Assembly: GCA_945932315.1 (NCBI GenBank)
Contig: CAMEPU010000004.1
Span: forward strand, 1 to 34,081
Origin: an uncultured Clostridia bacterium
GTDB taxonomy: Bacteria > Bacillota > Clostridia > Oscillospirales > Butyricicoccaceae
Length of the DNA: 34,081 nt
Direction of reading: 5' to 3'
Shown here: positions 30,111 to 32,261 of the stretch, piece by piece
How positions within the stretch are numbered: the first letter of the stretch is position 1
Layout of the letters: each line of letters starts with the position of its first letter
Notes under the pieces: model-generated
Databases searched by the model: none
Told to the model about the DNA's origin: nothing
The model's input: the letters and a program-made list of their open reading frames with translations, nothing else
Translations under genes and position numbers: made by a program

Positions 30111-30677
30111 TTAATAGCTTTGCAGGATGTCGTTCGCGATCTCGCGCCGGGTCGTGCGGCGGTTCATCGCCTGTTTTTCGATGTACGCGTGCGCGTCAGG
30201 CTCGGTCATGCCCCGGCACTCGATCAGAATGCACTTGGCGCGCCCGACCACCTTCTCGTCCTCGAGCTTCATGCGCAGGCGGGCGTTTTCGGCGGTGATC
30301 GCGTGCATCCGGTTCTGGGAGGCGTTCATCCAGCGCAGCGCCTGCAGCAGCAGCTCGGTGCTGAGCGGCTTGGACAGGACGAAGATGCCCGCCGGGTCGG
30401 CTTTGACCATCGCCTGATCGAGAATTTCGCTTTTCACCAGCAGGATGACGCCCAAGCCCGCGCGGTCGGCGAGGTCGAGCGCAAAGTCCATGCCGAATTC
30501 ATCCCCGAGCGGCGTGTTGACGAGTACGAGGTCGTAATCCTGCGTGACCTGGGCGCGGCGGGCGGCCATCGCGCCGATGACACAGGTGACCTCGAGCGGC
30601 AGGGCGGCGGAACGGATGAACCGCTCGAGCGCGTTGTTTGCCTTTTCAGTTGCCGAAACGAGCAGCAGACGGTTCAA
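30111..30677 (-). CDS. ANTAR-domain regulator with degenerate receiver domain (NitR-like), TTG start
   Basis: C-terminal ENARLRMKLEDEKVVGRAKCILIECRGMTEPDAHAYIEKQAMNRRTTRREIANDIL matches ANTAR; SD GGGGGAGG before TTG 30677; directly downstream of glnA. Confidence 0.88.
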   Translation of the reverse strand: MNRLLLVSATEKANNALERFIRSAALPLEVTCVIGAMAARRAQVTQDYDLVLVNTPLGDEFGMDFALDLADRAGLGVILLVKSEILDQAMVKADPAGIFVLSKPLSTELLLQALRWMNASQNRMHAITAENARLRMKLEDEKVVGRAKCILIECRGMTEPDAHAYIEKQAMNRRTTRREIANDILQSY

Positions 30678-30724: not shown

Positions 30725-32041
30725 TCAGAAACGGATGAAGTACATCTCGCGTTCGGTAGCGTGCAGATCGTCCGCGGCGCGGCAGCGCTCCCACTCGGCG
30801 CGCTTGGCGTCCAGATAGCTGCGCAGCGTGCGCTCGGGCAGAATGCGCCGCAGGAACTCGCTGTCCTCAGCCACTTGGAGCGCTTCGCCCAGATCGGCGG
30901 GCAGCTGGGAATAGCGGAGAGCGGCGTCCTCTTCCTCGACAAAGAGGTTCCGGTTGCACGGCGGATCGAGCTGCCGCTTCTCCAGCAGGCCTTCGATGCC
31001 GGCCTCCATCAGCAGGGCAAAGGCCAGATAGGGGTTGATCGCGCCGTCGGGCGAGCGGAGCTCCATGCGGCGCATCGCGCCCGAAGCCGCCGGAATGCGG
31101 ATGAGCGGGGAACGGTTCTGGTGGGACCAGGTGATGAAACGGGGCGCTTCGAATTCGCCGAAGCGGTCGTAGGAATTGGTCAGCGGGTTGAGGAAGATCG
31201 AAATCTCCCGCGCGCGGCTCAGGATGCCCGCGATGAACGCGTCGATCTCGGAGCCGGGCTGGCCAAAGCGGCCGAACACATTCTCGCCGTCCCGGAACAG
31301 GGACAGGTTGATGTGCAGGCCGCTGCCCGGCCGCCCATCGAGCGGCTTGGGCAGGAAGGACGCGAACAGGCCGTTCGAGGCCGCGGCCGTCTTGACGACC
31401 CATTTGTAGGTGGTCAGGTTGTCGGCCGCGCGCAGCGGATTGGAATACTTGAAGTCGATCTCGTGCTGGCCGGGGCCCTGCTCGTGGTGGGAGGCCTCGG
31501 GCTGAATGCCCATCTCCTCGAGCGTCAGGCAGATCTGGCGGCGGACATTCTCGCCCCGGTCGAGCGGCGCGATATCGAAGTATCCGGCCCGGTCATGGGG
31601 CGACAGCGTGGGATTGCCGGATTCGTCGAGCTCGAACAGATAGAATTCGCTCTCGGGGCCGACCGTGCATTCCAGATTGAGCTGGCGCAGACGGCGGACG
31701 GCCTGCCGCAGGATGTAGCGGCCGTCGCCCTCAAAGGGCTTGCCGTCGGGATACCGGATGTCGCAGTAGAAGCGGACGACCCGGCCGTGGGACGGCCGCC
31801 AGGGCAGGATGGACAGCGTGGTCGGATCGGGATAGAGCAGCAGGTCGGAGGACTCGATGTTCATAAACCCCGAAAATGCGGACGCGTCGAAGCTGATGCC
31901 CTCGCTGAACGCGCGGTCGAGCTCGCTGGGCATGATCGAAATATTTTTCTGGATGCCGAAGATATCGCAGAAGGCCAGACGAATAAACTTTACGTCGTTC
32001 TCCTCGATATATTCGAGCACGTCGGAAATTGAAGCAGTCAT
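30725..32041 (-). CDS. glnA: Glutamine synthetase type I
   Basis: VGPESEFYLFELD; HHEQGPGQHEIDFKY; GSGLHINLSLF; NRSPLIRIPAASG; 438 aa. Confidence 0.93.
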   Translation of the reverse strand: MTASISDVLEYIEENDVKFIRLAFCDIFGIQKNISIMPSELDRAFSEGISFDASAFSGFMNIESSDLLLYPDPTTLSILPWRPSHGRVVRFYCDIRYPDGKPFEGDGRYILRQAVRRLRQLNLECTVGPESEFYLFELDESGNPTLSPHDRAGYFDIAPLDRGENVRRQICLTLEEMGIQPEASHHEQGPGQHEIDFKYSNPLRAADNLTTYKWVVKTAAASNGLFASFLPKPLDGRPGSGLHINLSLFRDGENVFGRFGQPGSEIDAFIAGILSRAREISIFLNPLTNSYDRFGEFEAPRFITWSHQNRSPLIRIPAASGAMRRMELRSPDGAINPYLAFALLMEAGIEGLLEKRQLDPPCNRNLFVEEEDAALRYSQLPADLGEALQVAEDSEFLRRILPERTLRSYLDAKRAEWERCRAADDLHATEREMYFIRF

Positions 32042-32139: not shown

Positions 32140-32226
32140 AAAAAACGAAAAAACGCCCATCAATACCCGCATTCGCGCCGCGCCCTTTGCGCGCCGCCGC
32201 CGGTCTTGATGAACGCCCTTGTTCAT
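32140..32226 (-). promoter_or_regulatory. Candidate ANTAR-controlled antitermination leader: 5' hexaloop hairpin competing with intrinsic terminator
   Basis: ATGAAC[AAGGGC]GTTCAT (32226-32209) is exclusive with CGTTCATCAA (32215-32206)/TTGATGGGCG (32163-32154) followed by T6CGT6 (32153-32140). Confidence 0.6.
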
Positions 32227-32232
32227 AACCAT

Positions 32233-32261
32233 ATTGTAGGCGAAAGAAAATAAAAGGTCAA
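32233..32261 (-). promoter_or_regulatory. Distal sigma-A-like promoter for the glnA leader
   Basis: Minus strand TTGACC (32256-32261) - 17 bp - TACAAT (32233-32238). Confidence 0.7.

Follow-up and report, generated by a model that had tools for sequence, protein, structure and literature searches.

A Putative Single-Hexaloop ANTAR Attenuator at the 5' End of the glnA Transcript in Butyricicoccaceae and Other Clostridia

The analysis of the glnA leader in the window (the whole stretch of 34,081 nt that was analysed, from an uncultured bacterium of the Butyricicoccaceae) highlighted one hexaloop hairpin, located at the extreme 5' end of the predicted transcript and overlapping an intrinsic terminator. 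The leader has many relatives in which both helices covary and which occur, with few exceptions, in genomes encoding an ANTAR protein. Judging from the sequences, it is probable that transcription is attenuated in this leader under the control of a protein, through a single hexaloop read by the ANTAR protein encoded downstream of glnA. ANTAR control of the genes for glutamine and glutamate synthesis is already known in outline; what is new here is the architecture with a single 5'-terminal hexaloop, its spread, its regulon and the pseudo-receiver of the protein, for which no earlier reports were found in the open-access literature searched.

Anatomy and folding of the glnA leader

All the elements of the leader lie on the minus strand (Table 1). 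We confirmed the promoter proposed in an earlier note on this DNA, with a spacer of 17 nt between TTGACC and TACAAT and with the predicted start falling on the first base of the ATGAAC arm of the hairpin, here called P1. The perfect stem described in that note is also present, and its AAGGGC loop carries A in position 1 and G in position 4 and is closed by a C:G pair, as in ANTAR targets. The segment CGTTCATCAA (32215 to 32206) is complementary over 10 bp to TTGATGGGCG (32163 to 32154), which runs into the U-tract TTTTTTCGTTTTTT (32153 to 32140), consisting of TTTTTT (32153 to 32148), CG, and a further TTTTTT (32145 to 32140). Since the 5' arm of the terminator is made of the end of the P1 loop and of the P1 3' arm, the two structures are mutually exclusive, in agreement with what had been proposed.

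Table 1. Features of the glnA leader and operon in the window, and elements found in genomes with no detectable ANTAR gene
Feature	Position	Strand	Remarks
-35 box TTGACC of the glnA promoter	32256..32261	-	Read from the sequence
-10 box TACAAT	32233..32238	-	6 nt ahead of the hairpin stem; predicted +1 at 32226
P1 hexaloop hairpin ATGAAC-AAGGGC-GTTCAT	32209..32226	-	Perfect 6-bp stem, loop 32220-32215; presumed antiterminator and putative ANTAR-binding site
Intrinsic terminator, 5' arm	32206..32217	-	End of the P1 loop and P1 3' arm, then CAA; partner 32163-32152
Terminator 3' arm TTGATGGGCG and U-tract TTTTTTCGTTTTTT	32140..32163	-	Sequence, fold, co-transcriptional folding
GC-rich inner hairpin GCGgCGCGC-AAAGG-GCGCGgCGC	32175..32197	-	Inside the terminator, 5-nt loop; folds, not conserved in relatives
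64-aa ORF (MVMNKGVHQDRRRR...)	32232-32038	-	Begins at the hairpin, ends on the glnA start codon (ATGA)
glnA, glutamine synthetase	30725..32041	-	Pfam Gln-synt_N and Gln-synt_C
ANTAR protein gene	30111..30677	-	Pseudo-receiver N terminus (NitR-like); PF03861, E 9e-18, 64.2 bits; presumed trans-acting antiterminator of the glnA leader
Elements without ANTAR gene	L136, L143 (purA), L166 (purB), L204 (purC)		Genomes G029, G017, G041, G617

The predicted folding energy of the leader is -45 kcal/mol (z = -4.25), and none of 200 shuffled sequences folded equally well. When both conformers were folded in silico, a check suggested in the earlier note, the terminator reached -43.1 kcal/mol compared to -32.5 kcal/mol for the best fold with P1 forced, and in simulated co-transcriptional folding P1 was dominant up to about 70 nt and was then fully displaced by the terminator. 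The ANTAR gene attributed to the position directly 3' of glnA is indeed there, with a gap of 47 nt and a clear domain match. A gene for the type III glutamine synthetase (GSIII) lies divergent from glnA, from 32462 onward; a partner element ahead of it was searched for, also by eye, and none was found.

The window matched no Rfam family at the gathering score and, at E values up to 10, only unrelated families, which we took as chance matches. In particular, the glnA RNA and Downstream-peptide glutamine riboswitches, which are likewise found ahead of nitrogen genes and of genes for glutamine synthetase, differ from the element described here, as their covariance models did not match the leader at the gathering score; the leaders of ten relatives also matched none of the Rfam riboswitch families at the same score, the sole match obtained being a tRNA.

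Distribution and covariation of the element

The same leader is present in Butyricicoccus pullicaecorum DSM 23266 (locus L033) and in a same-genus genome (G003). Three same-genus glnA genes share the promoter, a GGAC-AAWGGC-GTCC hairpin and a terminator of the form TGCGGACGC(C) followed by a T-run, with different stem sequences. Furthermore, 80 named glnA loci were fetched from genome collections: in every one of them glnA is immediately followed by an ANTAR ORF, and the leader stands directly ahead of glnA in about two dozen, the element being sometimes located, in the remaining loci, at the start of the operon or ahead of a neighbouring gene. A scan of upstream DNA returned 20 element matches, compared to a single one in reversed sequence, and the genes 3' of these matches include GSIII, gltA, an ammonium transporter and purC.

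A covariance model was then built on 14 leaders, considering the terminator helix only and leaving P1 unpaired. Among the matches of the model in the genome of the window, the window site, itself one of the 14 seeds, ranks first (E = 5e-6). Matches were obtained in 50 of 87 genomes of the family at E <= 0.01, and at E <= 0.001 in 43 of 297 genomes of the order and in 40 of 292 genomes of a class-wide sample, the latter 40 spanning 31 genera. The counts for the order reflect this strict cut-off: 20 stretches, mostly upstream of ANTAR-linked genes, were checked in genomes without such a match, and several of them contained the element at a lower score or as the variant AAGGC-AANGGC-GTCTT. The genes 3' of the element include glnA, gltA (the glutamine amidotransferase part of glutamate synthase), GSIII, amt-glnK, pyrG, carA, purA, purB, purC and an Lrp-like gene, names that were assigned by recognising the sequences and by BLAST against a handful of reference proteins rather than taken from curated annotation, and they form a functionally coherent set of nitrogen and glutamine genes.

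The genome of the window contains a second copy of the element (L113, 1501 to 1546; G000:C68:8058-8103), with the loop AAAGGA and the promoter TTGACA-N17-TATAAT, ahead of an Lrp/AsnC-like regulator gene; this gene carries the element also in G016 and G028 (L149 and L175), and the L113 copy looks genuine. Other weak matches in the same genome were discarded, L112 (G000:C29) and L115 because they look like ordinary terminators and L114 because it is devoid of the alternative helix. A metagenome-assembled genome labelled as Treponema (L068) has the same glnA leader with an ANTAR gene downstream, which suggests either misbinning or that the unit was transferred horizontally.

In total, 73 leaders with the element, mostly from Clostridia, were analysed. 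The loop consensus is AANG(G/A)N: A1, A2 and G4 are found in each of the 73 instances, and the closing C:G pair in all 66 distinct sequences, an invariance which is partly due to ascertainment, since the seeds were found by a loop-and-closing-pair pattern; the terminator played no part in their choice. The P1 stem measures 4 to 9 bp in all but one of the instances, and most of them keep the layout from promoter to P1, with a distance between the -10 box and the stem mostly of 4 to 9 nt. The search for covariation among orthologues, also envisaged in the earlier note, revealed that both helices are conserved and covary over the 66 distinct sequences. In the 11-bp terminator helix, 98.2% of the cells are paired and 7 of the 11 pairs are doubly changed, with 128 doubly changed cells versus 36 in shuffles and a covariation of 0.656 versus 0.310. 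In P1, taken over six positions, 86.4% of the cells are paired; the doubly changed cells number 39 versus 15 in shuffles, including 20 A-U to G-C exchanges, and the covariation is 0.276 versus 0.166. When either helix is shifted by 1 to 3 columns, the paired cells fall to 22 to 52%. A count of P1 over just the 14 seeds was dropped as biased by ascertainment, and the first alignments, in which the 3' arm of the CAGC/GCTG variants was misplaced, were kept out of all the counts.

The element is associated with ANTAR genes at each taxonomic level considered. An ANTAR gene occurs in 46 of the 50 element-bearing genomes of the family (Fisher p 1.4e-12), in 39 of the 43 of the order (p 1.2e-6) and in 39 of the 40 of the class-wide sample, compared to 147 of 292 overall (p 4.8e-12), all these p values being too small because the genomes are related and not independent. 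Among the exceptions, the ANTAR gene of G086 is cut by the end of the contig. In a further genome of the same genus (G004; L218, G004:C36, minus strand), without an ANTAR gene and without a close GlnA, the element located before pyrG is decayed, and its P1 is mispaired (GAAC/GTCC).

The ANTAR protein and the known systems

The gene downstream of glnA is the only ANTAR match found in the genome of the window, which is 80% complete. Residues E159, K148, M171 and R174 of its product correspond to E160, K149, M172 and R175 of EutV, which contact G4 and plug the loop, and each of them is conserved in at least 95% of about 85 orthologues. Different from EutV, Tyr164 and Arg168 are replaced by His163 and Glu167, and the N-terminal domain is a pseudo-receiver devoid of the phosphorylatable Asp. 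In particular, Asn54 aligns with the phospho-acceptor Asp of Rv1626, inside a conserved N-x-P-L-x-D-E-x-G stretch, and this position is occupied by Asn in 76 of 85 orthologues and by Asp in 4 of 85; phosphorylation by a histidine kinase would therefore be unlikely. AmiR is also a pseudo-receiver ANTAR protein, and it is under the control of a protein partner. Since the glnA neighbourhood is constant, glutamine synthetase can be considered a candidate for this role.

ANTAR antitermination is taught as requiring two hexaloops. The leaders targeted by EutV, NasR and AmiR (eut, nasF and amiE) resemble the glnA leader in the short stem, in the C:G-closed A1/G4 hexaloop and in its mutual exclusion with an intrinsic terminator, as well as in the presence of an ANTAR gene in the genome and in nitrogen-related targets (PMC3369931, PMC7496416, PMC8934654); nitrogen genes are also among the predicted ANTAR targets (PMC3369931). 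The constancy of A1, A2 and G4 and of the C:G closing pair matches the results of EutV mutants (PMC3369931) and of NasR SELEX (PMC7496416). However, the known targets contain two tandem hexaloops, of which the second overlaps the terminator, single hairpins are weakly bound by EutV and NasR, and EutV requires both hairpins in vivo (PMC3369931, PMC7496416), whereas the glnA leader has a lone hexaloop, with which the transcript is predicted to begin. The study of the structure of EutV with RNA, reported in 2022, reinterpreted the complex as requiring no more than one hexaloop, regarded this as the minimal site and called for a bioinformatic search for such sites (PMC8934654).

The closest precedent is NitR of Clostridium saccharobutylicum, which, according to the passage of PMC6316151 citing Stutz et al. 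(2007), antiterminates the GS/GOGAT genes in nitrogen limitation. Both systems tie an ANTAR protein to GS/GOGAT genes, with the ANTAR gene adjoining glnA in the loci collected here. The leader described in this study is carried by Clostridium species (L051, L052, L062 and L066), and the NitR leader of C. saccharobutylicum is likely the same element. A lone antiterminator hairpin, overlapping a terminator and stabilised by a protein, is found also in the RAT of the BglG/SacY/LicT systems, which differ in the protein family involved and in the size of the RAT, about 29 to 30 nt. The BglG-type proteins are controlled via the sugar PTS.

Alternative readings and proposed mechanism

A standard dual-hexaloop element, in which an ANTAR dimer would hold P1 together with either the non-canonical inner hairpin or a distant copy, appears unlikely to us, even if all the well-studied ANTAR targets carry two hexaloops and AAAGG does occur in the inner hairpin of the window. 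The second GC-rich hairpin pointed out in the earlier note exists, with the 5-nt loop described there, but it is private to the genome of the window and was rejected as a conserved P2, hence as the partner in a two-hairpin motif. Among the 73 leaders, second A1/G4 hexaloops with a stem of at least 4 bp are not above the chance level given by shuffles, either downstream (5 versus 4.4 ± 2.3 expected) or upstream (2 versus 3.6 ± 1.8), and on the upstream side there is no room for a second hairpin because the promoter adjoins P1. Versions with a 3-bp stem are commoner downstream (23 versus 10.2 expected), many of them falling inside the 3' arm of the terminator. In a few relatives, two complete hexaloop-plus-terminator units, with the AAGGC-AANGGC-GTCTT stem variant, stand in tandem before GSIII (L183, plus strand, about 7187; L184, minus strand; L191, plus strand, about 5858; L197, minus strand); yet each of the two has a terminator of its own. 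The family apparently possesses a lone hexaloop, placed right where the transcript begins. The layout regarded as unusual in the note, with the first hairpin overlapping the terminator, is real, but it is the rule in this family rather than an oddity.

An attenuator read by a different factor, be it a small molecule or an RNA-binding protein of another kind, with the ANTAR gene as a mere neighbour, seems distinctly improbable. Such a reading would account for the intact elements found before purine genes in the genomes with no detectable ANTAR gene (G017, G029, G041 and G617), but it is at odds with the class-wide association with ANTAR genes, with their constant position 3' of glnA, with a loop and a closing pair that fit ANTAR specificity, with the mispaired P1 of G004, and with the lack of a match to any Rfam family. 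Still less probable is a leader peptide or small membrane protein of 64 amino acids, coupled to glnA through ATGA, which would make the RNA pairing incidental or part of a translation attenuator. Even though the open frame runs from the hairpin to the start codon of glnA, with which its stop overlaps, no ribosome-binding site precedes it, the other leaders have no counterpart, their frames being broken or their ORFs unrelated, neither a convincing tblastn match among the loci nor a Pfam match was obtained, and the RNA helices covary; the ORF, for which no relatives were found, was rejected as a conserved small protein and is probably a product of chance in GC-rich DNA. The least credible reading, which we consider nearly negligible, is that of a plain 5'-proximal terminator folding in two ways by chance and without regulation. 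AAAGGC...GCCTTT is commonly seen in bidirectional terminators, and the discarded match L112 is one lookalike in the same genome; on the other hand, the P1 5' arm is no part of the terminator and nevertheless covaries with the 3' arm, the promoter is located a few nucleotides upstream, the targets are coherent in function, and the element tracks ANTAR genes.

Returning to an attenuator read by the ANTAR protein, it is possible to outline the following mechanism. RNA polymerase would start at about 32226 and, because of this start, P1 (with its C:G-closed A-A-N-G-R-Y loop) would be the first structure made and would fold at once. If unheld, P1 would give way after about 70 nt to the helix formed by the terminator 3' arm with the P1 3' arm and the end of the P1 loop, and transcription would stop at the U-tract. 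If active, the ANTAR protein would grip the P1 loop and prevent the pairing of the terminator, with readthrough into glnA and into its own gene; a single hexaloop would be enough for antitermination. By analogy with NitR, the protein would be active in nitrogen limitation, and autoregulation is plausible since its gene shares the operon with glnA. The binding by the ANTAR protein, the direction of control, the signal and the autoregulation are what we infer here.

A wider proposal, which in our judgement is evenly balanced between holding and failing, is that a class of ANTAR attenuators occurs across Clostridia, in which a single 5'-terminal hexaloop would suffice to control a nitrogen and glutamine regulon and a pseudo-receiver ANTAR protein would sense nitrogen without phosphorylation, perhaps via the glutamine synthetase encoded next to it. 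The family provides natural evidence of single hexaloops, together with their terminator, of the kind called for by the EutV-RNA structure study (PMC8934654), and with this family at hand the reason why EutV requires two hexaloops and these systems apparently one can now be directly addressed by experiment. Moreover, the element matched no Rfam family at the gathering score, and a covariance model is now available for a putative nitrogen and glutamine regulon of many gut Clostridia, in which nitrogen control has been little studied.
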